A DNA stretch of 64,000 nt from Aquabacterium sp. (GTDB lineage: Bacteria > Pseudomonadota > Gammaproteobacteria > Burkholderiales > Burkholderiaceae_C): positions 1-64,000 of the forward strand of contig JAKLLB010000010.1 of assembly GCA_023150345.1 (NCBI GenBank), in the 5' to 3' direction. The notes under the pieces were generated by a model that was given only the letters and a program-made list of their open reading frames with translations, was not told the DNA's origin and made no database searches. A program made the translations under genes and the position numbers. Each line of letters starts with the position of its first letter. The first letter of the stretch is position 1. Below are positions 184 through 32,154 of this stretch, in pieces.

Positions 184-942
184 TCAGTCGTCGGTGGCGG
201 CGGGCGAAGGGCTTTCGGGGAATTCAGGCGTATTGGTCGTGCGCGCGGGCACCACGCTGGCAGCGCCGGCGCCCACCGTCACCACGGCGGGGCGGCCGGC
301 ATGCACCGCGGCGGCTTGGGCCAGGTCGGCCAGCCGGTGCGTGGTGGCCTGCGCATCGGGCCAGCCGGCGCGCGAGACCACGCTGGCCGGTGCCTCGGCC
401 GGCCAGCCGGCTTCCAGCAGCCGCGCGGCCAGTTCAGGCAGTTGCTGGCCTGCCATGTAGAAGACTTCGGTGTCGGCGCTGCGGGTGGCGTGGAGCTGGC
501 CCAGGTGGGTCATGGCCGTGGTGAGGCTCACGCTGCGGCCGCTACCGCGCCGGGTGAGCGGCCGGGCGGTGTGGGCGGCGGCGGCCAATGCGGCGGTGAC
601 GCCGGGCACCACTTCGAACGCGATGCCGTGCGCCAGCAGCGAGGCGATCTCTTCTTCCAGCCGGCCGAAGACGCTGGGGTCGCCCCCCTTGAGGCGCACC
701 ACGCAGCCGTGGGCCAGCGCCTGCTCGACCAGCAGCGCATTGATGGCACCCTGGCCGGTGGCATGGCCGAAGCCACGCTTGCCCACATCCAGCCACTGCG
801 CCTGGGGCGCGGCCTCGCGCAGCGCGGGGTCGGTGAGGGCGTCGAACAGCACCACGTCGGCCTGGGCCAGGCGCTGGCGGCCGCGCACGGTGATCAGGTC
901 CGCCTCGCCAGGACCGGCACCGATGAACACCACGCGGCCCAA
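184..942 (-). CDS. cobA: uroporphyrinogen-III C-methyltransferase (SUMT)
   Basis: A 252-residue SAM-dependent methylase that makes precorrin-2 from uroporphyrinogen III, the first step towards siroheme, the prosthetic group of sulfite reductase. Visible family marks are the N-terminal [14 protein letters not shown] nucleotide-binding loop (from residue 8), [13 protein letters not shown], and the [11 protein letters not shown] segment. The length matches single-domain SUMT; the CysG oxidase/ferrochelatase part is absent, so those steps must be encoded elsewhere. It follows cysN by 6 nt on the same strand and is the last clear gene of the sulfate-assimilation operon, which fits a role in supplying siroheme to CysI. 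The C-terminal 20 residues are rich in Pro, Ser and Thr and look like a non-conserved tail. Confidence 0.93.
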
Positions 943-948
943 GGTGGC

Positions 949-2220
949 TCAGCCTCCTGCGAGCAGCGCGCCGCTGGTGCGGTTGCTGGCCGGATCGACC
1001 ATGATCATCGCGCCGCCGACCCGGTTGCTGCCGTAGGGCTCCACCGGCAGCGGCTGCTGCAGCTCGACCACGACACGGCCGATCTCGTTGACCGCGAGCT
1101 CGTGTGCTTCGGTGGGCAACAGCGTGTGGATGTCGAGCCGGTGGTCGATGGATGCCAGGCGGGCCTGCGCCCAGCGATTGCCGTGGCGCACCCAGTACTT
1201 GCGGCCCACCTGGGCGGCTTCGGGGTCGAGCCAGGCGAGCGTGGCCTCGAAGCGCTGCGTGGGGCGCAGGCTGTCGGGGCTGGCGATCCAGTCGCCGCGG
1301 GAGATGTCGATTTGTCGGTCCAGCACGATGCCGGCGGATTCTCCCGCAATTGCGTGGGGCACCACGTCGCCGGCGCGGCGCACCTCGGCCACCACGGCCG
1401 TCTGCCCGCCGGGAAAGATCTGCACCGGGTCTCCAGCGCGCACGCCGCCGTGGGCGATGCGGCCCCATGCCACGCGCGGCTGGTGGCCCGTGCCGCCGCC
1501 GGCATCGCCGGGCTCGCGGGCCACGTACTGCACCGGCTGCAGCAGCGCGCCGTCGGTGCGTTCCTGTGTGGTGGGCAAGGCTTCGAGCAGTTCGAGCAGG
1601 GTGGGGCCCTGGTACCAGGGGGCATCGAGTGGCCGTGCCACGTTGTCGCCGTTCAGCGCGCTCACCGGCAGCATGCCGGCCACGGCAATGCCGGCTTCCG
1701 TCGCAAAGGTCTGCAGGGCATCGCGGGTGGCTTCCCAGGCGGCTTGCGGGTCGTCCACGGCGTCGATCTTGTTCACCGCAAACACCACGCTGGGCACGCG
1801 CAGCAGGTGCGCCAGCAAGGCATGGCGGCGCGTTTGCGGCAGCAGCCGCACGGGGCGCGTGCGCCAGTCGAGCTTGGTCACGTCCACCAGCACCACGGCG
1901 GCATCACTGCCGGCGGCGGCGGTGACCATGTTGCGGGTGTACTGCTCGTGCCCGGGTGCATCGGCAATGATGAACTTGCGATGCGGCGTGGCGAAGTAGC
2001 GGTAGGCGACGTCGATGGTGATGCCCTGCTCGCGCTCGGCCTCCAGTCCATCGGTCAGCAGCGAAAGATCGGGCGCAGCACCTGCTGCGCGATTGTTCAG
2101 CGCATCCAGCTGGTCGGCAAGGATGGCGCGGCTGTCGTAGAGCAGGCGTCCGATGAGCGTGCTCTTGCCGTCGTCCACCGAACCGGCAGTGAGGAAACGC
2201 AGTGCGCGGTGATCAGACAT
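949..2220 (-). CDS. cysN: sulfate adenylyltransferase subunit 1 (GTPase)
   Basis: The GTP-hydrolysing regulatory subunit of ATP sulfurylase. With CysD it activates sulfate to adenosine 5'-phosphosulfate (APS). The 423-residue protein has an EF-Tu-like G domain: P-loop GSVDDGKS at residues 13-20, the DAPGHEQYTRNM switch segment and the NKID guanine-specificity motif, followed by beta-barrel domains 2 and 3. No CysC (APS kinase) extension is present, agreeing with the APS-reductase type of CysH in this operon. Its ATG overlaps the cysD stop by one base (TGATG), typical of translational coupling, and cobA follows after 6 nt. Confidence 0.95.
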   Translation of the reverse strand: MSDHRALRFLTAGSVDDGKSTLIGRLLYDSRAILADQLDALNNRAAGAAPDLSLLTDGLEAEREQGITIDVAYRYFATPHRKFIIADAPGHEQYTRNMVTAAAGSDAAVVLVDVTKLDWRTRPVRLLPQTRRHALLAHLLRVPSVVFAVNKIDAVDDPQAAWEATRDALQTFATEAGIAVAGMLPVSALNGDNVARPLDAPWYQGPTLLELLEALPTTQERTDGALLQPVQYVAREPGDAGGGTGHQPRVAWGRIAHGGVRAGDPVQIFPGGQTAVVAEVRRAGDVVPHAIAGESAGIVLDRQIDISRGDWIASPDSLRPTQRFEATLAWLDPEAAQVGRKYWVRHGNRWAQARLASIDHRLDIHTLLPTEAHELAVNEIGRVVVELQQPLPVEPYGSNRVGGAMIMVDPASNRTSGALLAGG

Positions 2221-3185
2221 CAGAAGTAGCCTTCCTTCTTGCGGCGCTCCATCGAAGCGTCGCTGGTGCGGTCGTCCATGCGCGTGGCGCCGCGTTCGCT
2301 GACGGTGACCGTGAGCGTCTCGGCCACGATGTCGGCGGCGGTTTGGGCGTCGCTGCGCACGGGGCAGGTGCAGGTCATGTCGCCCACGGTGCGAAAGCGC
2401 ACGGTCTCGTTGACGATTGCCTCGTCGGCCTGTGGCGGGGTGACATCGGTCACCGGAACCAGCAGGCCTTTGCGGTGCACCACGGGCCGCTCATGGGCGT
2501 AGTAGAGCCCCGGCAGCGGTATGCGCTCGCGGGCGATGTACAGCCACACGTCGAGCTCGGTCCAGTTGCTGATCGGGAACGACCGGAAGTGCTCGCCGGG
2601 GCGGTGGCGGGTGTTGAACAAGGTCCACAACTCGGGCCGCTGCTCCTTGGGCTGCCACTGGCCGAAGCCGTCGCGGTGGCTGAAGATGCGCTCCTTGGCG
2701 CGGGCCTTCTCTTCGTCGCGCCGTGCGCCGCCGATCAGGCAGTCGTAGCGGTGCTCCTCGATCGCTTCGAGCAGGGTCACCGTCTGGTGGCCATTGCGCG
2801 ACTCCAGCGGGTCGGCCAGCCGCACGGTGCCGCGGCGGATGCTGTCCTCGAGGTGGCCCACCACCAGGCGCTCGTTCATCTCAGCCACGCGCTGGTCGCG
2901 AAACGCCAGCACCTCGGGGAAGTTGTGGCCCGTGTCCACATGCAGCAGCGGGAACGGCAGGCGCCCTCGGAAGCCGCTGGGCTCGCGCTCGTCGCGCATC
3001 TTGAAGGCCTTCTCGGCCAGGCGCAGCACCACGCAAGAGTCCTTGCCGCCCGAAAACAGCAGGGCCGGACGCTCGAACGAGGCGGCCACCTCGCGCAGGA
3101 TGAAGATGGCCTCTTCTTCCAGCCAGTCGAGGTGACGGCGATCGAGTTCGGGCAGCAGTTGGTCGAGATCGACGCGGGCGTTCAT
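2220..3185 (-). CDS. cysD: sulfate adenylyltransferase subunit 2
   Basis: The catalytic subunit of ATP sulfurylase (ATP + sulfate to APS + PPi), working with CysN. From the ATG at 3185 it is 321 residues and begins MNARVDLDQLLPELDRRHLD. It carries the PP-loop SGGKDS at residues 45-50, the LHVDTGHNFPE segment and the conserved GGARRDEEKARAKERIFS stretch of the PAPS-reductase-like adenylyltransferase fold. The open frame runs on upstream, but this start is right because it overlaps the cysH stop (ATGA) and the protein then has family length. The stop overlaps the cysN start by one base. Confidence 0.95.
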   Translation of the reverse strand: MNARVDLDQLLPELDRRHLDWLEEEAIFILREVAASFERPALLFSGGKDSCVVLRLAEKAFKMRDEREPSGFRGRLPFPLLHVDTGHNFPEVLAFRDQRVAEMNERLVVGHLEDSIRRGTVRLADPLESRNGHQTVTLLEAIEEHRYDCLIGGARRDEEKARAKERIFSHRDGFGQWQPKEQRPELWTLFNTRHRPGEHFRSFPISNWTELDVWLYIARERIPLPGLYYAHERPVVHRKGLLVPVTDVTPPQADEAIVNETVRFRTVGDMTCTCPVRSDAQTAADIVAETLTVTVSERGATRMDDRTSDASMERRKKEGYF

Positions 3186-3973
3186 GCAGGGGCTTTCTCT
3201 GGGGTCGACGCGCTGACGTGCAGCCCGCATTCCTTGGCACTTTCGTCCTCCCACCACCAGCGGCCGGCGCGGAAGTCCTCGCCCAGCGTGATCGCGCGGG
3301 TGCAGGGCGCGCAGCCGATGCTGGGGTAGAACTGGTCGTGCAGCGGGTTGTAGTCGACCTGGTGCTCGGCGACGTAGTGCCAGACATCGCCCAGCGTCCA
3401 GTCGGCCAGCGGATTGAACTTGGTGCGGCCGGTGGCGGTCACCTCGCTGGTGTCGACGGCCGGCACATCGGCGCGGGCGTTCGACTGCTCGCGGCGCAAC
3501 CCGGTGATCCAGCCGTCGCGGCCCTTCAGGGCGCGCTCCAAGGGCTCCATCTTGCGGATGCCACAGCAGCGCTTGCGCAGCTCGATGCTGCGGTACATCG
3601 CATCCTGGCCTTGGGCGCGGATGAACTCGATCACCGCCTCCTGCCGCGGCCGGTACACCTCGACCGTGAGGCCAGGCAGGGCCTGCGTTCGTTCGAGCAG
3701 GGCCAGCGTTTCGGTGTGCAGCATGCCCGTATCGAGCACGAACACGGGGATGTCCAGCCGCAGGCGGCGGATGATGTCGGTGATCACCACGTCCTCGACG
3801 CCCAGGCTGCTGGCCTGCGCCACGCGCCCGCTGGCAGCGGCCTGCCGCAGCACCGCCTGCGCGGCGGCCAGCCGGGCGGAAAAGTCGGCCGAGGCGCGGG
3901 CGTGGCGCTGCACCGCGGTGTCGTGACGGCCTGCCGATCGCAGTGCCGAGCTGGTCATGCCGGTGCTGCTCAT
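3182..3973 (-). CDS. cysH: phosphoadenylyl/adenylyl-sulfate reductase, APS type
   Basis: Reduces activated sulfate to sulfite with thioredoxin. From the ATG at 3973 the protein is 263 residues. It has the paired cysteines Cys136-Cys137 (KRCCGIRK) and Cys221/Cys224 (SIGCAPC), the four 4Fe-4S ligands that mark APS-using enzymes, and the catalytic ECGLH motif near the end (Cys249). That means the pathway needs no APS kinase, and none is seen. A GGGAGG sequence 4-5 nt upstream supports the start at 3973; a second Met five codons in (3958) is less likely. The ATG overlaps the stop of the DUF934 gene and its own stop overlaps the cysD start, so the genes are translationally coupled. Confidence 0.94.
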   Translation of the reverse strand: MSSTGMTSSALRSAGRHDTAVQRHARASADFSARLAAAQAVLRQAAASGRVAQASSLGVEDVVITDIIRRLRLDIPVFVLDTGMLHTETLALLERTQALPGLTVEVYRPRQEAVIEFIRAQGQDAMYRSIELRKRCCGIRKMEPLERALKGRDGWITGLRREQSNARADVPAVDTSEVTATGRTKFNPLADWTLGDVWHYVAEHQVDYNPLHDQFYPSIGCAPCTRAITLGEDFRAGRWWWEDESAKECGLHVSASTPEKAPA

Positions 3974-4365
3974 GCGGCCTCCCGTGCAAACAAAGGGCGC
4001 GGCTCCAGCACGTCGCCCTGGTAGTAGGCGCTGTAGCGCGCGAACTGCCGTTCGGCCGCGGCCGGCTCGACGCCGGCCGCCAGCACGGCACTGGTGAAGC
4101 CGCTGCGGTGCATGTGCACCAGTTGGTCGATCAGCACGTCGCCGGTGGCCCTGATGTCGCCGGTGTAGCGATAGCGGCGGCGCAGCAGCACGGCCTGGCT
4201 GTAGGCGCGGCCATCGGTGAACTTCGGGAACTCGAGCTCGATGCGCGCAATTCCCTGCAACGCACCGCTCTGTGCCAGCTCTGCCAGTTCGGCGTCGTTG
4301 GCGATGCGCAGCGTCTGCTCGGGGGCAACGTCGGCGGGCACGGCGTGGGCGGAATGGATCTTCAT
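3970..4365 (-). CDS. DUF934 protein of the sulfite-reduction operon
   Basis: A 131-residue soluble protein starting MKIHSAHAVPADVAPEQTLR. The central part (FPKFTDGRAYSQAVLLRRRY, then a TGDVLIDQL segment) is the DUF934 signature. The family is found almost always next to the cysI-type sulfite/nitrite reductase gene in proteobacteria; its biochemical role is not settled, so I give none. It sits between the disrupted cysI (36 nt upstream) and cysH (4-nt overlap). A run of eight G (plus strand) lies in the 36-nt gap before its start. Confidence 0.88.
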   Translation of the reverse strand: MKIHSAHAVPADVAPEQTLRIANDAELAELAQSGALQGIARIELEFPKFTDGRAYSQAVLLRRRYRYTGDIRATGDVLIDQLVHMHRSGFTSAVLAAGVEPAAAERQFARYSAYYQGDVLEPRPLFAREAA

Positions 4366-4401: not shown

Positions 4402-6074
4402 TCACTCGGCCAGCGCCTCGGCCTCGCGCTTCTGGCGCGCGCCGTTGGCGGCAGTCTTGAAGGGGTCGTGGCCGACGCGGCGCAGCGCGTCGATGAACAG
4501 CTCGCCCGGCCGGCGCAGCGCGCGGAACGTGTCGAGGATGGCCTCGAGCACATCGGGCACCTCGGCCGCCGAGAACGATGGTCCCACCACTTTGCCACCG
4601 ATGGCCGGGCCCGACAGCGTCGAGCCGTCCGAGCCGCCCAGCGTGACCTGGTACCACTCCTTGCCGTCCTTGTCGACGCCGAGGATGCCGATGTGGCCGC
4701 TGTGGTGGTGGCCGCAGGAGTTGATGCAGCCGCTCATGTGCAGGTCGATCGGGCCGAGATCGAACAGCTCTTGGGCTGCGCCAGGCCGAGCGCGCGCGCG
4801 GCTTCGTACAGCGCCGGCAGGTCGGCCTCGTGCACCCAGGGCAGCATCAGGTTCTGCTCGTGCGTGATGCGGGCCTCGGCCGCGCTGAACTGCTCGGCCA
4901 GCCCGGCCAGTGCGTCGAGCGTGTCGGCGTCGGCGTCGCCCGGGGCGAAGCCCCGGCGCTTGAACGACAGCGTGACGGTTCTCAGGCCCGGGCGGCGGTG
5001 GCCGCGCACGCTTTGCCTGAGCCAGCGCTGGTAGAGCTGGCCGTTGGTGTCCACCTTCGAGGGCAGGTTGGCAGGCACGATCTCGGGCTCGACGAAGCGG
5101 CCGACCACGCGGTCGAGCTCGGCCTGCGTGATGGTGTGCGGCGCGCCGTCTTGCTCGACGATGGCGCGGTACTCGTCTTCCACGGCGTCGCTGAAGCCCT
5201 GGCCTTCGCTCTTGACGAGGATCTTGATGCGCGCCTTCCACTTGTTGTCGCGCCGGCCGTAGCGGTTGTAGACGCGGACGATCGCCTCGATGTAGTTGAG
5301 CAACTGGTCCCACGGCAGGAACTCGCGCACCACGGGCCCGATCAGCGGTGTGCGGCCCATGCCGCCGCCCACCTTGACTGTGAAGCCGACGCGCCCGGCA
5401 TCGTCGCGCTGCGCCTGCAGGCCGATGTCGTACCAGCCGATGGCGGCGCGGTCTTCGGCGGCGCCGTTGAAGGCGATCTTGAACTTGCGCGGCAGGAACG
5501 AGAACTCCGGGTGCAGCGAGCTCCACTGGCGTGTGATCTCGGCGAACGGCCGTGTGTCGACGATGCTGTCTTCGGCGATGCCTTCCCAGGCGTCGCAGGT
5601 GATGTTGCGGATGTCGTTGCCGCTGGTCTGGATGCCGTGCATGCACACGCTGGCCAGCAGGTCCATCACGTCGGCCGCGCGGTCCAGCGGGATCCAGTTG
5701 AACTGCACATTGGTGCGGGTGGTGAAGTGGCCATAGCCGTAACGCAACGGCGGTGCGGCCAGCGTGAGGCCGGGCTGCGCGGCCTGCAGCGCATCCTGGG
5801 TGGCCTGGGCGTGGGCCAGCAGCTCGGGGCTCGGTCGGTCGAACTCGCGGGCGATGCGCGCCAGCACCCGCAGCTGCTCGCTGCTGATCTCGCCGTAGGG
5901 CACGGCGATGCGGGCCATGGGCGCATAGCGCTGCAGGTACCAGCCGTTCTGCAGGCGCAGCGGCAGCAGCTGCTCATGCGTGAGCTCGCCGCGCTGCCAA
6001 CGTTCGAGCTGGTCGCGGAACTGCTGGGCACGCAGGCGTACGAACTGGCGATCGAAGTCGGTGTAGGCGTACAT
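4402..6074 (-). pseudogene. cysI: sulfite reductase hemoprotein, frameshifted and internally deleted
   Basis: The gene starts at 6074 (MYAYTDFDRQFVRLRAQQFR) and reads as a normal nitrite/sulfite reductase through FTTRTNVQFNWIPLD, NDIRNITCD, the GGGMGRTPLIGP region and MLPWVHEADLPALYEAARAL. At about 4766-4780 (reading LGLAQP) the frame is lost and would terminate at 4734. The C-terminal part continues in another frame as LFDLGPIDLHMSGC and HHHSGHIGILGVDKDGKEWY, ending at 4402. In the family these blocks are separated by roughly 44 residues containing the first Fe-S cysteine pair (a CPGGDFC-type motif). That segment is absent; only the second pair, GCINSCG, remains. The frame change implies a deletion of 3n+1 nt, about 130 nt. 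Seen: two frames and the missing block. Inferred: deletion or assembly error. As written, no active enzyme could be made. Confidence 0.88.
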
Positions 6075-6082: not shown

Positions 6083-6850
6083 TCAGTGGATGACTTTGAG
6101 ACCGGCGGTGACGAGGGACAGGCACAGCAGCGTGCGCACCAGCCGCTCGGGCATGGAACGGGTGAGGCGGGCGCCCAGCCAGATGCCGGGCAGCGAGCCC
6201 ACGAGCAGTGCCGCCAGCAGTGCCCAATCGACATGGCCCAGCGTGGCATGACCGATGCCGGCGACCAGCGTGAGCGGCACCGCGTGGGCGATGTCGGTGC
6301 CCACCAGCCGGTGGGCGGGCAGCCGGGGGTACAGCAGCAGGATCAGCGTGGCCCCGATGGCTCCCGCACCGATGGAGCTCAGCGACACCAGCACACCCAA
6401 CAGCGCGCCCGAGGCCACGGTGAGCACATTGCGGCGACGCTCGGGCAGCCAGCGCTCCAGCCGCAGGCCCAGCGCGTGCCAGAGCTGCTTGTAGGCGACC
6501 GTGACAGCCGTGAGCAGCAGCGCGATGCCCAGCGAAAAGGTCAGTGCGCTGGCCCACCCTTTGGTGATGCCGGTGAAGTGCATCAACGCGATCGTGGCCA
6601 GCGCCGCCGGCAGGCTGCCGGCGAGCAGCAGGCCGGTGATGCGGTAGTCGACGTGGCCGTGGCGGTGGTGCGCCACCGAGCCTCCCACCTTGGTGAGCGC
6701 GGCAAACCACAGGTCGGTGCCGATGGCGACGGCCGGGTTGAGCTTGAACACGCCGATGAGCAACGGCGTCATCAGGGAGCCGCCGCCCACGCCGGTCATG
6801 CCGACGATGGCGCCGATTCCGAAACCGCTGATGATGGCAATCCAGTCCAT
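6083..6850 (-). CDS. TauE/SafE-family membrane permease
   Basis: A multi-pass inner-membrane protein of the sulfite exporter TauE/SafE family, probably moving sulfite, sulfate or a sulfonate-derived anion. The chosen start (MDWIAIISGFGIGAIVG) gives 255 residues and puts the first membrane helix at the N terminus; an upstream Met at 6913 would add 21 polar residues. The two internal repeats are visible: GMTGVGGGSLMTPLL early and SLSSIGAGAIGATLILLLYP in the middle, each opening a bundle of helices. It is the first gene of the cys operon, 8 nt before cysI, so sulfur-regulated expression is likely. Neither start has a good Shine-Dalgarno sequence. Substrate direction cannot be told from sequence. 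Confidence 0.85.
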   Translation of the reverse strand: MDWIAIISGFGIGAIVGMTGVGGGSLMTPLLIGVFKLNPAVAIGTDLWFAALTKVGGSVAHHRHGHVDYRITGLLLAGSLPAALATIALMHFTGITKGWASALTFSLGIALLLTAVTVAYKQLWHALGLRLERWLPERRRNVLTVASGALLGVLVSLSSIGAGAIGATLILLLYPRLPAHRLVGTDIAHAVPLTLVAGIGHATLGHVDWALLAALLVGSLPGIWLGARLTRSMPERLVRTLLCLSLVTAGLKVIH

Positions 6851-6953
6851 GGCGAGGGTGTGGTTGTGCACCTGCGCGGCTGGCAGCGGATTGCGGCTGC
6901 CGGGCCTGTGCATGAGGCTCGCACTCTAGGAAACCCTCATATGAAATGGAACT

Positions 6954-9939: not shown

Positions 9940-10398
9940 GTGAGCCACCGCCCCCAGCCCGACACCCGCGATCGTTACCGGCACCACACCACGCTGACCA
10001 CCCGCTGGATGGACAACGACATCTACGGGCATGTGAACAACGTGCAGTACTACAGCTACTTCGATACGGTGGTGAACCGCTACCTGATCGAGGCGGGCGC
10101 GCTGGACATCCACCTGGGTGAGGTGATCGGCCTGGTCGTGGAAACGCACTGCAACTACTTTGCGCCGCTGTCGTTTCCGCAGCCGGTGGAGGCCGGGCTG
10201 CGGGTGGCACAGGTCGGCCGCTCCAGCGTGCGCTACGAGATCGGCCTGTTCGCGCCAGGCGAGCCGCTGGCCGCCGCCTGTGGTCACTTCGTGCACGTCT
10301 ACGTGGATCGCGCGACCCGGCGGCCGGCCCACCTGCCGCAGGTGCTGGTGCAGGCGCTGAACGCGCTGCAGGTCGATCTCAGCCGCCCACGCCCTTAG
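9940..10398 (+). CDS. acyl-CoA thioesterase, 4HBT hotdog family
   Basis: A 152-residue single hotdog-fold protein from the GTG at 9940. The family signature [20 protein letters not shown] is clear, including the catalytic-type Asp of MDND and the GHVNN turn; the later part ([20 protein letters not shown]) also fits YbgC/4-hydroxybenzoyl-CoA thioesterase relatives. It would hydrolyse an acyl-CoA in the cytoplasm; the specific substrate is not evident. It follows the HDAC-like gene by about 70 nt and may be cotranscribed. Confidence 0.87.
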
Positions 10399-10541
10399 CG
10401 GCAGGCACCGAATACCGGCGGGCGATCGACTGCGCGGTTTCCCCAGGGTATCCGTTCAGGCTGCGCTCAGCGGACGCTGCCTAGAATCGGCGCCCGTTGC
10501 AGTCCAACCGCCCGGTGCATCGTCGGGCCTGCGAGAACACC

Positions 10542-11909
10542 ATGCCCCGAACCTTGCGCGCCGTTGTCGTCGCCCTCGTGTTGCCCATGTTGTGCCTGCT
10601 GGGGCTGCCGGCGTGGGCCGCCGCTGGTGCCGCCGCCGGCCCTGCAGTCGCCGGCATCCCGGTTGACTTCATGCTGTTCGCCTGCGTCCTGCTCGGCGTC
10701 GCGCTGTTTCATCACCACACCTTGAAGGTGGCGCTCGGTGGTGCCGTGGTCATCACGCTCTACCAACTGCTGGTCACCGGCTTCAAGGCCGGCGCGGGCC
10801 TCGCCGGGCTGGCGGCACACCTGGGTCATGAGTGGGTGACGCTGGCCAACCTGCTGGGCTTGCTGCTGGGCTTCGCGCTGCTGGCCGATCACTTCGAGAA
10901 GAGCCACGCCCCCGAAGTCCTGCCCCACCTGTTGCCCGACGACTGGAAGGGTGGCTTCATGCTGCTGGTCGGCGTGTTCGTGATGTCGGGCTTCCTGGAC
11001 AACATCGCTGCGGCCATGATCGGCGGCACCATGGCCAAGGTGCTGTTTCAGCGGCGGGTGCACATCGGCTACCTCGCCGCGATCGTTGCGGCCTCCAATG
11101 CCGGCGGTGCCGGCAGCGTGGTGGGTGATACCACGACGACGATGATGTGGATCGCCGGTGCGAGCCCGCTGTGGGTCGTCGAAGCCTACATCGGCGGCGC
11201 CGTTTCACTGATGTTCTTCGGCGTCGTGGCATCGCTCAAACAGCACGACTACCAGCCTATCCAGAAGGACGACACGCCCGGCGTGCATGTCGATGCCGGT
11301 CGCCTGGCCATCGTCGGAGTCATCCTGGTCGCAGCCATCGGGTCGAACGTGTGGTTCAACCTGAACAACCCGTCGGTGCTCGAGCACTTCCCGGTGATCG
11401 GCGTGGCCGTGATGCTGGCCATCGTCGTGTGCGCGCCGGTCCGGCGCCCGGAGTGGGGGCTGTTGCCGGGCGCATTCAAGGGCAGCGTGTTCCTGCTGGC
11501 GCTCGTGTGGTGCGCCTCGCTGATGCCCGTGGACAAGCTTCCCACGCCGGCCTGGCCCACGGCCTTGGGACTGGGCTTCGTATCGGCGGTGTTCGACAAC
11601 ATCCCGCTCACGGCACTGGCCATCCGGCAGGACGGCTACGACTGGGGCTTCCTGGCCTACGCCGTCGGATTCGGCGGCTCGATGATCTGGTTCGGCTCCT
11701 CGGCCGGCGTGGCGTTGTCGGGCATGTACCCGGAGGCGCGGTCCGTCGGCCGCTGGGTGGCGCAGGGCTGGCATGTGGCAGTGGGCTATGTGTTGGGGTT
11801 CATTGCCATGTTGCTCGTCCTGGGGTGGCACCCGCACCCGATCAAGGGCGACGCCCCTGTCGCATCGCCGACAGCGGCAGTGGCTGCGCCTGCGGCTGCC
11901 TCGCGCTGA
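10542..11909 (+). CDS. ArsB/NhaD-like ion transporter
   Basis: A 455-residue inner-membrane protein with about ten or more hydrophobic segments. It starts MPRTLRAVVVALVLPMLCLL, which may be a signal-like first helix. The motifs SGFLDNIAAAMIGG and, near the end, SAVFDNIPLTALAI are the two inverted-repeat re-entrant loops typical of the ion transporter superfamily (NhaD sodium/proton antiporters, ArsB, citrate carriers). NAGGAGSVVGDTTTTMMWIAG in the middle belongs to the NhaD/ArsB branch. Cation antiport is the likeliest role; an organic-acid substrate cannot be excluded. TAGAAT at 10482-10487 is a candidate -10. Confidence 0.78.
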   Translation: MPRTLRAVVVALVLPMLCLLGLPAWAAAGAAAGPAVAGIPVDFMLFACVLLGVALFHHHTLKVALGGAVVITLYQLLVTGFKAGAGLAGLAAHLGHEWVTLANLLGLLLGFALLADHFEKSHAPEVLPHLLPDDWKGGFMLLVGVFVMSGFLDNIAAAMIGGTMAKVLFQRRVHIGYLAAIVAASNAGGAGSVVGDTTTTMMWIAGASPLWVVEAYIGGAVSLMFFGVVASLKQHDYQPIQKDDTPGVHVDAGRLAIVGVILVAAIGSNVWFNLNNPSVLEHFPVIGVAVMLAIVVCAPVRRPEWGLLPGAFKGSVFLLALVWCASLMPVDKLPTPAWPTALGLGFVSAVFDNIPLTALAIRQDGYDWGFLAYAVGFGGSMIWFGSSAGVALSGMYPEARSVGRWVAQGWHVAVGYVLGFIAMLLVLGWHPHPIKGDAPVASPTAAVAAPAAASR

Positions 11910-11918
11910 TCATCCAAC

Positions 11919-12950
11919 ATGAGCGGCCAGGGCGCGACTCGGACTCTGCCGCGCCAGCGCGTGCTGGTGACGCTGCCGCTGTTCGACGAGGTGATCGACC
12001 GGTTGTCGGCATCATTCGATGTCGATGTGTCGCGCGAGGGCATCCTGGCCGAGCCTGAAGCGCTGGCACGGCGCGCCGCAGGCAGCGCTGGGTTGCTCGT
12101 TTCGGGCTCGCCGCGCATCGACGCCGCCTTGCTCGACGCCTGCCCGGGTCTGCGCGCGGTGTGCAGCATGGCCGTGGGCTTCAACAACATCGATGTCGAC
12201 GCGTGCACGGCTCGGGGTGTGTTGGTGAGCAATGCACCGGGCGTGCTCACCGAGACCACCGCCGACTTCGGCTTCGCACTCATGATGGCGGCCGCCCGCC
12301 GGTTGACCGAGAGCGAGCACTACCTGCGCGCGGGCCGGTGGAACACCTGGCGCTACGACATGTTCGCCGGACAGGACGTGCACGGCAGCACGTTGGGCAT
12401 ATTGGGCATGGGTCGCATCGGGCAGGCGATCGCGCGCCGAGGTGCACTGGGCTTCGGCATGCCGGTGATCTATCACAACCGCAGCCGCCTGGACCCTGCC
12501 GCGGAAGCCGTGGTGTCGGCACGGTGGGTCGACAAGCCGACGTTGTTCGCCGAGGCCGACCACATCGTGGTGGTGGTGCCTTACACGCCGCAGGCCCATC
12601 ACATGGTGGGCGAGGCCGAGTTGGGCCTCATGAAGCGCACGGCAACGCTGACCAACATCGCACGCGGTGGCGTGGTTGATGACGCCGCGCTGGCGCGTGC
12701 GCTGGGCGAAGGGCGCATTGCCGCTGCTGCGCTCGATGTGTTCGAGGGCGAACCGCAGGTGCATCCGGGCCTGCTGGCGGCCACCAACGTGGTGCTGACA
12801 CCGCACATCGCCAGCGCGAGCCTGCGCACGCGTCGTGCCATGGCCGACCTGGCTGCGTCCAACCTCGAAGCTGCGTTGGGTGTGGGACCGACGCCTGGAC
12901 GACCGCCCACGGCCCTGAACCCGCAGGTGCTTGCCGCACGGCCCTGTTGA
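11919..12950 (+). CDS. D-isomer-specific 2-hydroxyacid dehydrogenase (glyoxylate/2-ketogluconate reductase type)
   Basis: A 343-residue NAD(P)H-dependent oxidoreductase. The Rossmann loop GILGMGRIGQAIARRG is intact, and the catalytic set is present: Arg in NIARGGVVDD, Glu in DVFEGEPQVHP and His in TPHIASAS. The overall pattern is that of GhrB/TkrA-like enzymes, which reduce glyoxylate, hydroxypyruvate or 2-ketogluconate in the cytoplasm. It starts 9 nt after the permease gene, so the two are probably cotranscribed. Which 2-keto acid is used cannot be decided here. Confidence 0.87.
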   Translation: MSGQGATRTLPRQRVLVTLPLFDEVIDRLSASFDVDVSREGILAEPEALARRAAGSAGLLVSGSPRIDAALLDACPGLRAVCSMAVGFNNIDVDACTARGVLVSNAPGVLTETTADFGFALMMAAARRLTESEHYLRAGRWNTWRYDMFAGQDVHGSTLGILGMGRIGQAIARRGALGFGMPVIYHNRSRLDPAAEAVVSARWVDKPTLFAEADHIVVVVPYTPQAHHMVGEAELGLMKRTATLTNIARGGVVDDAALARALGEGRIAAAALDVFEGEPQVHPGLLAATNVVLTPHIASASLRTRRAMADLAASNLEAALGVGPTPGRPPTALNPQVLAARPC

Positions 12951-22776: not shown

Positions 22777-25365
22777 ATGTCCGAGCTGCCCTCGGCCCCA
22801 GCCGCCCCCGATCATGACCTCGACGCGCAGGAAACCCGCGAATGGCTGCAGGCGCTCGAAGGCGTCGTTGCCGCCGAAGGCAAGGAACGGGCCCACTACC
22901 TGCTCGAGCAGCTGCTGGAGCAGGCCCGCCAGAACGGCATCGACATGCCGTTCTCTGCCACCACCGGCTACGTCAACACGATCGAGCCCGAGGACGAGGA
23001 ACGCAGCCCGGGCAACCTCGAACTCGAGGGTCGGCTGCGCGCCTACATGCGCTGGAACGCGATGGCCATGGTGGTCAAGGCCAACCGCACCGAATCGCCT
23101 GACGGCAGCGAACTGGGCGGTCACATCAGCTCGTTCCAGTCGCTGGCACACATGCTGGCTGCCGGCTTCAACCACTTCTGGCATGCCGAAAGCCCTGGCC
23201 ATGGCGGCGACCTGCTGTACCTGCAAGGGCACAGCGCGCCGGGCATCTATGCACGCGCGTTCCTCGAGGGACGCGTCAGCGAGGATCAACTGCTGAACTT
23301 CCGCCAGGAGGTCGGCGGCAAGGGGCTGTCGAGCTACCCGCACCCGAAGCTGATGCCCGGGTTCTGGCAGTTCCCCACGGTGTCCATGGGTCTGGGCCCG
23401 TTGATGGCGATCTACCAGGCGCGGTTCCTCAAGTACCTGCACGCCCGCGGCATCGCCGATACCTCCAACCGCAAGGTGTGGGTGTTCTGCGGCGACGGCG
23501 AGATGGACGAGCCTGAGAGCATGGGTGCCATCGGCCTGGCCACGCGCGAGAAGCTCGACAACCTGATTTTCGTTGTCAACTGCAATCTGCAGCGGCTCGA
23601 CGGACCTGTGCGCGGCAACGGAAAGGTGATCCAGGAACTCGAGGGTGACTTCCGCGGCGCCGGCTGGAACGTCATCAAGCTGATCTGGGGCCGCAACTGG
23701 GATGCCTTGCTGGCGCGCGACAAGGATGGCGCGCTGCGCAAGATCATGATGGACACGCTCGATGGCGACTACCAGGGCTTCAAGGCCAACGATGGTGCCT
23801 TCGTGCGCAAGCACTTCTTCGGCCGCGACCCCCGCACGCTCGAGCTGGTGGCGAAGATGAGCGACGACGACGTATGGAACCTGCGTCGCGGCGGCCATGA
23901 CGCGGGCAAGGTCTACGCAGCGTTCCACCAGGCCAACGCCCATACCGGCCAGCCCACCGTCATTCTGGTCAAGACGGTCAAGGGCTATGGCATGGGCAAG
24001 GCCGGCGAGGGCAAGAACACGGCGCACCAGACCAAGAAGCTGTCGGACGACGACATCCGCTACTTCCGCGACCGCTTCAACATCCCCATCCCCGACAGCG
24101 AGCAGTTCACGGTGCCGTCGCTCGAGACCTTCAAGGCCGTCCTCGAGCCCACGGCGCCGGGGCGCGAGATCTCGACGACGCAGGCCTATGTGCGGTTCCT
24201 GACCCAATTGCTGCGCGACCAGGCGCTGGGCCCGCGTGTCGTGCCCATCCTGGTGGACGAGGCACGCACCTTCGGCATGGAGGGGTTGTTCCGCCAGATC
24301 GGCATCTACAACCCCGAAGGCCAGAAATACACGCCGGTCGACAAGGACCAGGTGATGTACTACCGCGAGGACAAGGCGGGGCAGATCCTGCAGGAAGGCA
24401 TCAACGAGGCCGGCGGCATGAGCAGCTGGATCGCCGCGGCGACGTCGTACTCGACGAACAACCGCATCATGGTGCCGTTCTTCATCTACTACTCCATGTT
24501 CGGCTTCCAGCGCTTCGGCGACCTGGCCTGGGCCGCCGGCGACATGCAGGCGCGCGGCTTCATCCTGGGTGGGACCTCGGGGCGTACCACCCTCAACGGC
24601 GAAGGATTGCAGCACGAGGACGGGCACAGCCAGGTTCAGGCCGGCCTGATCCCGAACTGTGTGACCTACGACCCGAGCTTCGCGCACGAGGTGGCGGTGA
24701 TCCTGCACCATGGTCTCAAGCGCATGGTCGAGAAGCAGGACAACGTCTTCTTCTACATCACGCTGCTCAACGAGAACTACGCGATGCCCGGGCTGGCTGC
24801 TGGCACCGAGGAGCAGATCATTCGCGGCATGTACCTGCTCGACGCCGCGCCGACCGATGCCAAGTTGCGGGTCAACCTGCTGGGCAGCGGTTCCATACTG
24901 CGCGAGAGCATGGAGGCCAAGAAGCTGCTGGCGGCCGACTGGGGCGTGGCAGCCGACGTGTGGAGCTGCCCGAGCTTCAACGAGTTGGCCCGAGACGGTC
25001 AGGACTGCGAGCGCTGGAACATGCTGCACCCGACGGACGAACCCCGGCTGGCCTTCATTGCGCAGCAGTTGGCGCAAACCAGCGGGCCGGTCATCGCCTC
25101 GACCGACTACGTCAAGAACTATGCCGAGCAGGTCCGCGCTTTCGTGCCCAGGGGCCGTGCCTATCGCGTGCTGGGAACCGACGGCTTCGGCCGCAGCGAC
25201 TTCCGCTACCGCCTGCGTGAACACTTCGAGATCGACAGCCGCTACATCGCGGTGGCTGCATTGAAGGCGCTGGCTGACGAAGGGTCGATACCCGCGGCCC
25301 GTGTCGCCGAGGCGATCGCCAAGTACGGCATCGATGCCGAGCGCGTGAACCCCCTGCAGGCCTGA
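22777..25365 (+). CDS. aceE: pyruvate dehydrogenase E1 component, homodimeric type
   Basis: 862 residues from the ATG at 22777, supported by AGGAGA 7 nt upstream; an in-frame Met at 22723 has no such site. It decarboxylates pyruvate with thiamine diphosphate and reductively acetylates the lipoyl group of E2. Family marks include GGDLLYLQGHSAPGIYARAF, the ThDP/Mg site FCGDGEMDEPESMG continuing to NCNLQRLDGPVRGNGK, and C-terminal ASTDYVKNYAEQVRAFVPRG. Length and both ends are normal for AceE. The next gene, 33 nt on, is the E3 gene, not the E2 gene as is usual. Confidence 0.96.
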   Translation: MSELPSAPAAPDHDLDAQETREWLQALEGVVAAEGKERAHYLLEQLLEQARQNGIDMPFSATTGYVNTIEPEDEERSPGNLELEGRLRAYMRWNAMAMVVKANRTESPDGSELGGHISSFQSLAHMLAAGFNHFWHAESPGHGGDLLYLQGHSAPGIYARAFLEGRVSEDQLLNFRQEVGGKGLSSYPHPKLMPGFWQFPTVSMGLGPLMAIYQARFLKYLHARGIADTSNRKVWVFCGDGEMDEPESMGAIGLATREKLDNLIFVVNCNLQRLDGPVRGNGKVIQELEGDFRGAGWNVIKLIWGRNWDALLARDKDGALRKIMMDTLDGDYQGFKANDGAFVRKHFFGRDPRTLELVAKMSDDDVWNLRRGGHDAGKVYAAFHQANAHTGQPTVILVKTVKGYGMGKAGEGKNTAHQTKKLSDDDIRYFRDRFNIPIPDSEQFTVPSLETFKAVLEPTAPGREISTTQAYVRFLTQLLRDQALGPRVVPILVDEARTFGMEGLFRQIGIYNPEGQKYTPVDKDQVMYYREDKAGQILQEGINEAGGMSSWIAAATSYSTNNRIMVPFFIYYSMFGFQRFGDLAWAAGDMQARGFILGGTSGRTTLNGEGLQHEDGHSQVQAGLIPNCVTYDPSFAHEVAVILHHGLKRMVEKQDNVFFYITLLNENYAMPGLAAGTEEQIIRGMYLLDAAPTDAKLRVNLLGSGSILRESMEAKKLLAADWGVAADVWSCPSFNELARDGQDCERWNMLHPTDEPRLAFIAQQLAQTSGPVIASTDYVKNYAEQVRAFVPRGRAYRVLGTDGFGRSDFRYRLREHFEIDSRYIAVAALKALADEGSIPAARVAEAIAKYGIDAERVNPLQA

Positions 25366-25398: not shown

Positions 25399-27225
25399 AT
25401 GGCGCTCATCGAAGTGAAGGTGCCGGACATCGGCGATTTCAAGGAAGTGGCGGTGATCGAGCTGCTGGTCAAGCCGGGAGACACGATCAAGGCCGAGCAG
25501 AGTCTGGTAACGGTGGAAAGCGACAAGGCATCGATGGAGATTCCATCGAGCCATGCTGGCGTGGTGAAGTCGCTGCGCGTGGCCCTGGGCGACAAGGTCA
25601 GCGAAGGCACGGTGCTGCTGGAGCTCGAAGCCGCGGGGGCCGCGGCACAAGGTCCGGCTGTTGCGCCTGTCGCGGCGCCCGCTGCTGCGGTGGCCGCTGC
25701 ACCTGCTGCTGCGCCAGCCGCGGCGGCATCTGCCGCAGCCTGGAGCGGCACGGTCGACCACAGCTGCGACCTGCTGGTGCTCGGCGGCGGGCCGGGCGGC
25801 TACTCGGCCGCCTTCCGCGCTGCTGACCTGGGGCTGAAGGTGGTGCTGGTGGAGCGCTATGCCACGCTGGGCGGCGTCTGCCTGAACGTGGGTTGCATCC
25901 CGTCCAAGGCGCTGCTGCATGTGGCATCTGTCATCGACGAAGTGCGTCACTTCGGTGATCTGGGCGTCGACTTTGGCGCGCCCCGCATCGACCGCGAGAA
26001 GCTGCTGGCGCACAAGAACAAGGTTGTGGGCAAGCTCACCGGCGGCCTCGCGGCGATGGCCAAGATGCGCAAGGTCAGCGTTGTCCGCGGCTACGGCACT
26101 TTCGCGGGAGCGAACCACCTGACGGTCGAGATGACCGAGGGCGATGCCCAGGGCAAGACCGGTCAGCAGCAGGTGATCCAGTTCGCCCGCTGCATCATTG
26201 CGGCCGGCTCCTCCGCCGTGCGGCTGCCGTTCCTGCAGGCCAACGGACTCGACCGCGATCCGCGCATCGTCGATTCCACCGGCGCGCTGCAGTTGCGCCA
26301 GACGCCCCAGCGCATGCTGATCATCGGCGGGGGGATCATCGGCCTGGAGATGGGTACGGTGTATTCGACGCTCGGCGCGCGGCTGGACGTGGTGGAAATG
26401 CTCGACGGCCTGATGCAAGGCGCCGACCGCGATCTTGTGCGGGTGTGGCAGAAGATGAATGCCTCGCGCTTCGACCAGATCCTGCTCAAGACGCGCACCG
26501 TGGGAGCTGAGGCAACCGCCGCGGGCATCCGGGTGCAGTTCGAGGACGCTGCCGGCAAGACCAGTCACGCCGAGTACGACCTGGTGCTGCAGGCGGTGGG
26601 GCGACGCCCCAACGGCGGCAAGCTCGGCGCCGATCGCGCTGGCGTGCGCGTCGACGAGCGCGGCTTCATACCGGTGGACGTGCAGATGCGCACCAACGTG
26701 CCGCACATCCACGCCATCGGTGACATCGTCGGCCAGCCCATGCTGGCCCACAAGGCGGTGCACGAGGCGCATGTGGCAGCCGAGGTGGTGGCCGGCGAAC
26801 TGCGCGGCGACGAGGCGCTGGCCCGCGCCCGCTTCGATGCGCGCGTGATCCCGGGCGTGGCCTATACCGACCCCGAGGTCGCCTGGGTGGGCCTGACGGA
26901 AGACGACGCCAAGGCGCGCGGCGTGGCCGTGAAGAAGGGCTTGTTCCCCTGGAGCGCGTCGGGGCGGGCCATCGCCAACGGGCGCGACGAGGGCTTCACC
27001 AAGCTCTTGTTCGATGCCCAGACGCATCGCGTGCTCGGCGGCGGCATCGTCGGAACGCACGCGGGCGACATGATCGGCGAGATCGCGCTGGCCATCGAGA
27101 TGGGCGCCGACGAAGTGGACATCGGCAAGACCATCCATCCGCACCCGACGCTGGGTGAGAGCATCGGCATGGCTGCCGAGGCGGCCCATGGCAGCTGCAC
27201 CGATCTGCCGCCCGCGCGGCGTTGA
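25399..27225 (+). CDS. lpdA: dihydrolipoamide dehydrogenase with N-terminal lipoyl domain
   Basis: 608 residues. A lipoyl domain (1 to about 80) with lipoylation site ESDKASME, Lys43, is joined by an Ala/Pro-rich linker (about 80-113) to a complete E3 flavoprotein: FAD loop [11 protein letters not shown], redox pair Cys161/Cys166 ([15 protein letters not shown]), NAD loop [12 protein letters not shown], and the HPHPTLGE dimer-interface His-Glu motif. E3 with its own lipoyl domain is known in Burkholderiales. What is odd is the position directly after aceE, with no aceF. The lipoyl domain also looks very E2-like, so deletion by recombination between aceF and lpdA lipoyl sequences is possible. 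Confidence 0.93.
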
Positions 27226-27352
27226 ATCCGCCGCGGCCGTCGATTTCCACACGAAGTTGAAGGCGGCGACTGGCGCCGCGTTCTTCAGTGGCGTTCAGCG
27301 CTGCCGAGTATGACGAGATGGCGCGTTCCATGCGCGCTGTCTCCCCCTGCTC

Positions 27353-29014
27353 ATGCCTGTCGCCCAAAACCTCCCTACGGGCCCGCCCACTCGCACGGCG
27401 GCGACCGACACTGGCGACTTCGATCATCCTCCGACAGCGGCGGGGTCGGGCCCGCGCGCGTCAGTCGGCTTGCCGCCCGCGCCGGCGTTGCACCGGGCCG
27501 GTCGCTGGCGGCTGGCGGCCGCGGCTGTCTGGCTCGCGCTGATGGCCTGGCTGGGGTTCGCGGGTTACATCGCATTGCCTTCGGGCCAGCTGGGGTCCGA
27601 CGCCATGCTGGGGTTTGCGGTGTTCGGAACCGGCGCCGCCGTTCTGTTGGCAGCGGCGGTTGCGGCGCACGAGCGGGCGCAGGCCCGCCTGGCGGCGGAA
27701 GTCGAGCACGCCTGGGTCCAGACCCGGCACCAGTTGCAGGCACTGTTCACCTCCCAGACGGAGCAGCTCGAGGCCCTTCGACGCGACGCCCACGTCGACG
27801 CACTCACCGGGCTGGCCACGAGACGTCACTTCCTGACGCAGCTCGATCGGGTCCTGGCCAGCGGCCTGCCTCGCCTGGGCCTCGTGATCCTGCGTGTGTG
27901 CGACGTGCAAGGCATGAACCGACGCATCGGTCGCGAAGCGGCCGACCACGTGCTGCAAACCCTGGCGCAGACCATGATGCAGTATCCCCATCGCCATGAC
28001 GGCTGCCTGGCCGGTCGGCTCAATGGGACCGACTTTGCGCTTGTACTGCCGGTGCCGGGCGTGGCCCGCGAGACAGCGCACGCGTTGGTCAGCGCGATGC
28101 GGGTGCCGATGGTGTCGGTCGACGGCGCGGCTGGGGTGTGCGGTGGCGTGGTGGAGCTGGCGGCTCCGGTGGCGGTGGCGATGGCGCTGTCGCTGGCCGA
28201 TGAGGCCCTCGCACGAGCTGAGGCCGCGGGGGCGTTCCGGGTCGTGCAGGCCGACCATGCGCCGCCGGACCCGCCCTTGGGCGAAGCCACCTGGCAGCAG
28301 CATCTGGCTGACGCGCTGCAGCAGGCGCGCACCTCCCTGGGCGCCTACCCGGTGTGTGCGGCCGATGGCCGCGTGCTTTACCTCGACTGCCCCTTGCGAA
28401 TCCAGCTGGGCGCGTCGCAGGATCGGCGGGTGGCAGCGCACTGGCTGCCCATGGCCGCCCGTGCGCGGCTGTGTGCACAGGTCGACGCCCATGTGCTCGG
28501 CCTGGCCCTGCAGGCAATAGCGGCGGACGGGCGGGGGCGTTGCATCAACTTCGCTGCGCAATCGCTCGGTTTCAGTTCGTTCGTGGCACATGCCACCCAG
28601 ATGATCGAGTTGGCGCAACCGCACGCCGGGCGACTGTGGATCGACCTGCCGGAGTCGCTCGCGCTGGAGCGACCGGAGCTCGTGCGTGATGTGGCACTGC
28701 GCTGGGGCGCTGCTGGCGTGCAGGTGGGGCTGGAGCATGTGGGCGAGGCGCTCGCCCGTGTGCCGGGGTTGCCGGACATGGGGCTGAAGGTCGTGCGGGT
28801 CGACAGCTGCTTCATCGATGGCGCGGCTGTGCCAGGTGCGGCGGATCTGCGCCGGCACCTGCGCGCGCTGGTACAGGTGGCCCACGGCCTGGGCATGTCG
28901 ATCACGGCTGAAGGCGTGCGCGATGCGGCCGACCTGCAACAGGTCTGGTCACTGGGCTTCGACGCGGCGACAGGGCCTGCGGTTCAGCCGATGTCCCCGC
29001 AGTACAGCGGATAG
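27353..29014 (+). CDS. degenerate GGDEF-EAL domain protein
   Basis: 553 residues. Two hydrophobic segments (about 53-77 and 84-105) precede a coiled linker and a GGDEF domain entered through DALTGLATRRHFLTQLDRV. The cyclase signature is degenerate: residues 224-228 read NGTDF instead of GGDEF. The EAL domain opens with DCPLR (345-349) where active enzymes have EALLR, and later keeps only family-like segments (SITAEGVRDAADLQ). It is therefore probably not a cyclase or phosphodiesterase but a c-di-GMP-sensing or purely structural protein at the inner membrane. Its 3' end overlaps the convergent NUDIX gene by 31 bp. Confidence 0.82.
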   Translation: MPVAQNLPTGPPTRTAATDTGDFDHPPTAAGSGPRASVGLPPAPALHRAGRWRLAAAAVWLALMAWLGFAGYIALPSGQLGSDAMLGFAVFGTGAAVLLAAAVAAHERAQARLAAEVEHAWVQTRHQLQALFTSQTEQLEALRRDAHVDALTGLATRRHFLTQLDRVLASGLPRLGLVILRVCDVQGMNRRIGREAADHVLQTLAQTMMQYPHRHDGCLAGRLNGTDFALVLPVPGVARETAHALVSAMRVPMVSVDGAAGVCGGVVELAAPVAVAMALSLADEALARAEAAGAFRVVQADHAPPDPPLGEATWQQHLADALQQARTSLGAYPVCAADGRVLYLDCPLRIQLGASQDRRVAAHWLPMAARARLCAQVDAHVLGLALQAIAADGRGRCINFAAQSLGFSSFVAHATQMIELAQPHAGRLWIDLPESLALERPELVRDVALRWGAAGVQVGLEHVGEALARVPGLPDMGLKVVRVDSCFIDGAAVPGAADLRRHLRALVQVAHGLGMSITAEGVRDAADLQQVWSLGFDAATGPAVQPMSPQYSG

Positions 29015-29529
29015 TCGTCACGGGCCCGGCAGGCGTAGTAGTGCCGCAACGTCTCGCGCACGGTGCGAAAGGCGATTTCGTCCCATGGCACCTCATGTTC
29101 GTGAAACAGGCGCGCTTCGAGCGTCTCAGGACCCGGATCGAGTGTGGCATCGAGCATGCGGGCGCGATAGAACAGATGCACCTGTCCCACGCGAACCACG
29201 CTCAACACCGTGAACAGCCCCTCCAGTTCCACGCGTGCGCCGGACTCCTCGACGGTCTCACGAACCGCGCCCTCGGCCACGGTTTCGCCCAGTTCCATGA
29301 AGCCTGCGGGAAGCGTCCACAGGCCACGGCGCGGCTCGATCGCCCGGCGGCACAACAGCACTTGATCGTTCCAGATGGGCACCGTGCCGACCACGTTCAG
29401 CGGGTTTTCGTAGTGGATCGTGCCGCAGCGGGGGCAGGTGGCACGCTCGCGATTGTCGTCGGCGGGGACGCGGTATTCGACGGTGTGTCCACAGTCGCGG
29501 CAGTGTCGGATCGCGTGCGAGCCCAGCAT
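28984..29529 (-). CDS. NUDIX hydrolase with zinc ribbon
   Basis: 181 residues. The N terminus carries a zinc ribbon (HCRDCGH and CPRCGTIHYENP) followed by the Nudix box GFMELGETVAEGAVRETVEE, in which the G-x5-E-x7-RE-x2-EE-x-G spacing is intact. The combination resembles NudC/ADP-ribose pyrophosphatase relatives that cleave nucleoside diphosphates linked to another group. TACACT lies 6 nt before the ATG with no Shine-Dalgarno sequence, so the mRNA may be leaderless. Tail-to-tail overlap of 31 bp with the GGDEF/EAL gene. Confidence 0.88.
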   Translation of the reverse strand: MLGSHAIRHCRDCGHTVEYRVPADDNRERATCPRCGTIHYENPLNVVGTVPIWNDQVLLCRRAIEPRRGLWTLPAGFMELGETVAEGAVRETVEESGARVELEGLFTVLSVVRVGQVHLFYRARMLDATLDPGPETLEARLFHEHEVPWDEIAFRTVRETLRHYYACRARDDYPLYCGDIG

Positions 29530-29647
29530 CGCGGCAGTGTAGCCGGCGCTTGCGTGGCATCATCGATGGCGCCTGTGCGCACGTGGCCGTGGATCGGCCG
29601 GCGCAGGCCACTCCGACACCGATCTGCCGACTTTCGGAACCCCTGCC

Positions 29648-30340
29648 ATGACCTTTGTGATCAGCGCGCCGCGCGTGCCCACCGTGCCGGTGACCACCGG
29701 CGGCGAGTTTCCCGTGCATCGCATCTACTGCGTGGGTCGCAATTACGCCGAGCATGCCCGCGAGATGGGCCACTCCGATCGCGAGCCGCCGTTCTTCTTC
29801 ATGAAACCGGCCGACGCCGTGCTGCCTGTGGCCCAAGGGCAGACCGGCGCGATGGTCTACCCTGCACTGACCTCCAATCTGCACCATGAGGTGGAACTGG
29901 TGGTGGCCATTGGTCGCGGGGGGCGCGATATCGCAGTGGCCGATGCCCCGGGTCATGTCTGGGGCTACGCGGTGGGGCTGGACATGACCCGGCGCGACTT
30001 GCAGGGCGAAATGAAGAAGCAGGGCCGCCCCTGGTGCATCGGCAAGGCATTCGAGCAATCGGCACCGATCGGGCCGCTGCATCCGGTGGCCGGCACCGGG
30101 TGGCTCGAGCGTGGCGGGATCACACTGGCCGTCAATGGAGAGTTGCGCCAGCGCGGCGATCTGTCGGAGCTGATCTGGAACGTGGCCGAGGTGATCGCCG
30201 AGCTGTCTCGAGCCTGGGGACTGCAGCCGGGTGACCTGATCTACACCGGTACGCCGGCCGGGGTGGGCGCGGTGGCGCGCGGTGACGTGATGGAGGCGGC
30301 GATCGAAGGCCTGGGCACGTTGCGGGTTGCGGTTGCCTGA
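29648..30340 (+). CDS. fumarylacetoacetate hydrolase family protein
   Basis: 230 residues of the FAH fold: HRIYCVGRNYAEHAREMG, FFFMKPADAV, the metal-binding HHEVELVVAIG, GYAVGLDMTRRDLQ and the GDLIYTGTPAGVGAV end motif. Size and motif set match the fumarylpyruvate hydrolase (NagK) branch more than full-length fumarylacetoacetase. The next gene is a zeta-class GST isomerase, so the pair could complete the gentisate pathway (maleylpyruvate to fumarate plus pyruvate) or act in tyrosine breakdown; no ring-cleavage dioxygenase is in the window. Confidence 0.87.
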   Translation: MTFVISAPRVPTVPVTTGGEFPVHRIYCVGRNYAEHAREMGHSDREPPFFFMKPADAVLPVAQGQTGAMVYPALTSNLHHEVELVVAIGRGGRDIAVADAPGHVWGYAVGLDMTRRDLQGEMKKQGRPWCIGKAFEQSAPIGPLHPVAGTGWLERGGITLAVNGELRQRGDLSELIWNVAEVIAELSRAWGLQPGDLIYTGTPAGVGAVARGDVMEAAIEGLGTLRVAVA

Positions 30341-30398
30341 ACAGCCCGTGGCGACGCACCCCGACCGCGCATCCACCGACCCCATACATCGAGTGCAC

Positions 30399-31034
30399 AT
30401 GAAGCTATACAACTACTTCCGCTCCTCCGCCTCGTACCGCGTGCGCATCGCGCTGGCGCTCAAGGGTTTGTCGTACGAGTACCTGCCCGTGCATCTGGTG
30501 CGCAACGAGCAGTTCAACGAGTCCTATGCGGCCGTGTCCGCATCGCGACTGGTGCCGCTGCTGGTGGACGGCGATGCGATGCTGACGCAGTCGCTGGCCA
30601 TCATCGAGTACCTCGAGGAGACCCATCCGCAGCCGCCCCTGTTGCCGTCCGATCCCCTGGGCCGGGCGCGCGTGAGGGCGCTGGCGCTGGACATCGCCTG
30701 CGAGATCCACCCGCTGAACAACCTGCGCGTGCTGCGCTACCTCACCGGCGCACTCAAGGTCGCGGAGGACGACAAGAATCGGTGGTATCGCCATTGGGTC
30801 GAGACGGGGCTGGAGTCCGTGGAGCGTCAACTGACGCGCGCACCCGCGCCGTTCTGTCATGGTGACGCCCCTGGCCTGGCCGATTGCGTGCTGGTGCCGC
30901 AGATCTTCAACGCACAGCGCTTCGATTGCCGGCTCGACCACGTGCCGCAGGTCATGCGTGTCTTCGAGCGCTGCATGGCACTCGAGGCATTCAGCGCCAC
31001 CCAACCATCGGCCTGCCCTGACGCCCAGGAATGA
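30399..31034 (+). CDS. maiA: maleylacetoacetate/maleylpyruvate isomerase (zeta-class GST)
   Basis: 211 residues from the ATG at 30399 (MKLYNYFRSSASYRVRIALA). The SSASYRVRIAL motif holds the zeta-class catalytic Ser; SRLVPLLVDGD and LTQSLAIIEYLEE are the glutathione-binding N-terminal thioredoxin-fold parts. It uses glutathione to isomerise the cis ring-fission product to the fumaryl form. Located 58 nt after the FAH-family gene, its functional partner. An upstream in-frame Met at 30327 would overlap that gene and is rejected. Confidence 0.9.
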   Translation: MKLYNYFRSSASYRVRIALALKGLSYEYLPVHLVRNEQFNESYAAVSASRLVPLLVDGDAMLTQSLAIIEYLEETHPQPPLLPSDPLGRARVRALALDIACEIHPLNNLRVLRYLTGALKVAEDDKNRWYRHWVETGLESVERQLTRAPAPFCHGDAPGLADCVLVPQIFNAQRFDCRLDHVPQVMRVFERCMALEAFSATQPSACPDAQE

Positions 31035-31071
31035 GCACATCGTTCCCGGCGCTTGCAGGGGCGCTGCGTCG

Positions 31072-31887: not shown

Positions 31888-31897
31888 TGTCGCGTGC

Positions 31898-32128: not shown

Positions 32129-32137
32129 TTTCAGATG

Positions 32138-32154
32138 GTGATACGCGATATCAC
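32138..32154. promoter_or_regulatory. inverted repeat upstream of phaC
   Basis: GTGATA (32138-32143) and TATCAC (32149-32154) with a 5-nt spacer, in an AT-rich patch between the small membrane protein gene and phaC. Operator-like; the binding protein is unknown. An octamer TGCTGCAC at 32208-32215 is also found inside the phasin palindrome (8756-8763), which might hint at shared PhaR-type control. Confidence 0.45.

Follow-up and report, generated by a model that had tools for sequence, protein, structure and literature searches.

A clean 115-nt gap in cysI of an Aquabacterium draft genome is very probably one of a recurring class of assembly defects

The sulfite reductase gene cysI of Aquabacterium sp. 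is interrupted in the draft assembly by the clean absence of 115 nt, and we consider it very probable that this gap is a local assembly defect and that the living organism has an intact cysI. The window, the whole stretch of DNA analysed here with a length of 64,000 nt, corresponds to positions 1-64000 of contig C11 in a draft with 251 contigs (4.58 Mb, 94.4% complete). In such a defect two true flanks would have been joined directly and the 115 nt between them omitted, and the same fault, with a loss of 115-151 nt, would recur in other genes of the assembly; we infer that the reads would contain the missing cysI stretch. The initial annotation had offered three options; assembly error is the best supported of them, because a 117-nt gap was found in aceE of the same window and four more gaps of 117-151 nt on two other contigs, and a deletion causing auxotrophy is unlikely.

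The minus strand carries, in this order, a TauE/SafE gene, cysI, a DUF934 gene, cysH, cysD, cysN and cobA (Table 1). As had been proposed from the sequence, the rest of the operon looks intact: cysH, cysD, cysN and cobA each matched a family along most of the protein, with scores above the curated cut-off. According to the ORF translation, cysI (6074..4402) starts at 6074 with MYAYTDFD. Its 5' frame encodes a NIR_SIR protein up to ARALGLAQPK, beyond which translation is out of frame and meets a stop at 4734; the frame breaks between 4770 and 4771, and the C-terminal part resumes in another frame at ELFDLGPIDLHMSGCINSCGHHH (ELFDLGP) and ends at 4402. The NIR_SIR match of this 3' piece begins only at profile position 52.

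Table 1 Genes of the cys operon and clean gaps of the assembly relative to the sister genome. Coordinates refer to the window.
Feature	Coordinates	Strand	Remarks
TauE/SafE-family gene, upstream of cysI	6083..6913	-	PF01925
cysI 5' part, NirA-type siroheme sulfite/nitrite reductase	4773..6074	-	434 aa in frame to junction; label from best NCBIfam matches, all below cut-offs
cysI junction, clean gap, 115 nt of sister species absent	4770..4771	-	alignment to sister; zero microhomology; frame shifted
cysI 3' part, other frame	4402..4761	-	second Cys pair SGCINSCG
DUF934 gene of cys operon	3970..4365	-	PF06073, family positions 2-107 of 107 matched
cysH, adenylyl-/phosphoadenylyl-sulfate reductase	3182..3973	-	family match
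cysD, sulfate adenylyltransferase small subunit	2220..3185	-	family match
cysN, sulfate adenylyltransferase large subunit	949..2220	-	family match
cobA, uroporphyrinogen-III C-methyltransferase	184..942	-	family match
aceE, clean gap, 117 nt (39 codons)	24098..24103	+	in the window; 5-nt microhomology; frame kept
Ends of converging uppP and trmB, clean gap, 117 nt			
korB-like gene, clean gap, 147 nt			frame kept
GNAT-like ORF, clean gap, 148 nt			frame shifted
XrtA/PEP-CTERM amidotransferase, clean gap, 151 nt			frame shifted

The nearest relative among 40 examined was MAG_31 (G019, Burkholderiaceae, JABWBN010000023.1), here called the sister, which is 96% identical over the 5' part of cysI; around the junction identity was 96% on the 5' side and 94% on the 3' side (locus L005, which sits inside L034). 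Compared with this copy, exactly 115 nt (38 codons plus 1 nt, 3 × 38 + 1) are missing. The frameshift and the 3n+1 deletion read from the sequence alone were thereby confirmed, and the size given at that time, about 44 residues or 130 nt, proved somewhat too large. The absent 115 nt encode NIGLLTDLIACPGGDFCSLANARSLPIAAAITERYQDID, which holds the first Cys pair of the siroheme/4Fe-4S site; the heptad CPGGDFC falls within the 38 residues plus one base of the sister's extra stretch, so that the loss of this pair, also noticed initially, was substantiated. Siroheme/4Fe-4S sulfite/nitrite reductases are marked by ferredoxin-like half domains and two NIR_SIR domains in one chain, and by four cysteines in the arrangement C-x5-C ... 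C-x3-C, whose role as ligands of the cluster is established for the family. In the sister protein, two NIR_SIR stretches lie within one chain and C-x5-C is present. In the assembled cysI the second domain lies in the other frame and C-x5-C is absent, which leaves the gene without the complete set of four ligands. Like the ferredoxin-type siroheme nitrite/sulfite reductases, the window cysI has the PF03460 and PF01077 domains and the second Cys pair; unlike them, it is divided between two frames and is missing 38 residues, the first Cys pair among them. The sister copy aligns to the nitrite reductase chain 3b0l, with CPGGDFC placed on CTGNQFC of that chain.

An insertion in the sister instead of a loss here was ruled out for cysI by the related loci. 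The named genome collection yielded 354 relatives, and the loci of the best 80 were inspected: in 78 the two Cys pairs share a frame and are spaced identically, whereas two loci are cut off by contig ends. Thirty loci came from whole genomes (L004-L033), one of which is the window's own; the search pattern caught both pairs in 28 of the 29 others, and the one it missed, L032, contains CPGAEFC and CMNAC within a single frame.

CysI residues 81-112 (window 5739-5834), about 32 residues, are missing in 19 of 20 same-genus genomes, with the sister as the exception, and those genomes match CysI only as residues 1-80 and from 113/114 onward. Over residues 113-434, identity to 17 of the 20 amounts to 60-65%, and CysI is 76-87% identical to many proteins of Acidovorax, Comamonas, Ottowia and similar organisms. 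This pattern suggests that cysI was acquired by horizontal transfer.

For the search for similar gaps, 743,873 nt of the draft were set against 655,493 nt from the relative, giving 277,706 aligned columns; search hits guided part of the selection, so the regions do not represent a random sample. Alignments of up to 250 columns or with up to 80% identity were excluded before counting. Not scored as clean were a 66-nt gap in this assembly (flank identity 235/305), one of 79 nt in the sister (157/247) and replacements in which both genomes have unmatched sequence. Six clean deletions were found in this assembly, with lengths of 115, 117, 117, 147, 148 and 151 nt, and none at 46-2,658 nt outside this class in the 277,706 columns. 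The largest clean deletion below the class was 45 nt and the next above it 2,659 nt, at a site with an additional element in the sister. The six absent stretches are mutually unrelated in sequence, their joints share 0-5 nt, and there was no N at the junctions (0 N in 743,873 bases). The same type of break therefore recurs in unrelated genes of one assembly, as expected of an artefact. So narrow a size class is not expected for independent natural deletions but would be produced by a systematic assembly defect; the support for this reading is a pattern of few events, six, in the compared regions. The name GNAT-like, as well as the names reverse-transcriptase-like and group II intron used below, is presumptive and was given from the look of the translations.

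The six gaps affect seven genes in the aligned columns, as could be expected if the genome were truly decaying through a mutational process with losses of about 115-150 nt at a time. We regard this explanation as scarcely credible: this assembly has no clean deletion of 46-2,658 nt outside the class, the ends of the gaps share no repeat beyond 5 nt, dN/dS is low in both hit genes tested (cysI and aceE), and neither genome has a marked excess of indels of 1-30 nt (150 deletions vs 142 insertions). Counting all indels of up to 60 nt within alignments gave 151 deletions and 142 insertions. There was no sign of selection for keeping the frame in the large gaps: three of the five single-gene gaps shift it (cysI, GNAT-like ORF, XrtA amidotransferase) and two keep it (aceE, korB-like gene), and three of the six lengths are divisible by three, one of them across two gene ends. 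Small indels differ in this regard, with multiples of three making up 42 of 62 at 3-8 nt and 9 of 15 at 9-30 nt.

Loss here, as opposed to insertion in the sister, is settled for cysI, aceE, trmB and the XrtA amidotransferase, not for the korB-like gene or the GNAT-like ORF. An insertion in the sister was ruled out for aceE, since profile positions 429-465 are absent from the window copy, for trmB, whose profile match ends at 155 of 194 here vs 193 in the sister, and for the amidotransferase, where the match reaches 573 of 628 here vs 627 in the sister. The loss in uppP is small and comprises about the last six profile positions. The shorter KorB protein scores as well as the longer one (203.5 vs 201.1 bits), and its absent 49 residues are not shown to be conserved by the profile. 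A second, full-length aceE is located on contig C54, and because of this copy a loss of the window aceE could be survivable; the essentiality of aceE was therefore dropped as an argument.

The sister draft is itself an imperfect reference. In the reverse direction a single clean gap of comparable size (100 nt) was found; it lies at L191 18942-18943 (G019:C90), close to the 3' end of an ORF of 371 residues whose counterpart in the window's genome is open. The sister draft also lacks 642 and 1,040 nt that are present here, with poorer flank identity (167/249 and 216/242). The extra 2,659 nt of the sister (L172 14954-17611, G019:C272) are located inside a tRNA-Gly(ccc) gene that is intact here (L137 1892-1965), and they contain a complete tRNA-Gly(ccc) (L172 16743-16816) as well as a reverse-transcriptase-like ORF; this stretch may be an element of the presumed group II intron type or a misjoin at a repeat. 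Within the window, positions 10356-11956 span 1.6 kb vs 7.7 kb in the sister, with matching flanks, and positions 55579-57550 about 1.97 kb vs 160 nt. Window 44900-55578 is 99% identical to the sister, vs 93% for 25400-45000 and 90% for 57551-61921, hinting at a recent exchange or a mixed origin.

Comparison with the sister gave dN/dS values of 0.11 and 0.06 for the 5' and 3' halves of cysI (dS 0.16 and 0.20) and of 0.03 and 0.05 for the halves of aceE. Relaxed constraint, the mark of a true pseudogene, was not seen in cysI. Normal constraint thus acted on both genes up to the present or almost so, as would be the case with an artefact but equally with an event of very recent date. A repeat-mediated deletion was rejected, as the cysI joint has neither microhomology nor a direct repeat of at least 8 nt pairing both ends. 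Loss driven by a hairpin was rejected likewise for cysI and aceE, the two gaps whose absent stretches were folded: they are no more stable (-42.7 and -45.7) than 300 random 117-mers of the sister (mean -47.9, sd 7.1).

Searches of the whole 94.4%-complete draft with PF01077 and PF03460 revealed no second sulfite reductase besides the cysI pieces. The sole further NIR_SIR protein, on contig C183, was rejected as a candidate because it was identified as NirB, a nitrite reductase (755 bits vs a cut-off of 578). The absence of another sulfite reductase is thus supported within this draft; that sulfite would be made yet not reduced hinges on the deletion being real and is unlikely. The absent 115 nt were not found elsewhere in the draft either, the best match being 21 nt at 95% (E 0.02) with 40 of 81 candidates scored. 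These two results, together with the clean junction and the broken frame, are what a genuine, very recent 115-nt deletion would leave, by which cysI was inactivated and the organism came to rely on reduced sulfur from its community (cysteine, sulfide, thiosulfate). Such a deletion is nevertheless improbable in view of the five further gaps of like size in unrelated genes, the constraint on both halves of cysI and the apparently intact remainder of the cys operon. The deletion might also be present in part of the population only, with the assembler having taken that path; a graph assembler normally requires reads that cross a junction, and drafts of this type represent the consensus of a population. 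This version is highly improbable, as it calls for six minor variants that arose independently, are of like size and were each preferred over the intact form. The full alternative, in which the only sulfite reductase was lost by a very recent clean deletion while the operon was kept, the organism is a sulfur auxotroph fed by its neighbours and the genome sheds pieces of about 115-150 nt, is in our judgement quite improbable, and an assembly defect remains the preferred reading.

According to Cooley and Wright (2024, PMC11017572), many apparent pseudogenes in public genomes trace to assembly errors, and the assembler, the sequencing platform and the coverage are named as causes of spurious ones. 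The cysI gap resembles the spurious pseudogenes described there in that a conserved gene seems broken in an assembly and is intact in relatives; unlike the frameshifts and internal stops treated there, the breaks found here are clean gaps that fall into a single size class, 115-151 nt. Draft genomes of uncultured bacteria serve to infer which pathways are missing and where an organism depends on its neighbours, and in this case sulfur auxotrophy could be claimed wrongly on account of one clean 115-nt gap. An easy check follows from the recurring size class: a draft is compared with its nearest relative and clean gaps of the same size are sought in unrelated genes.
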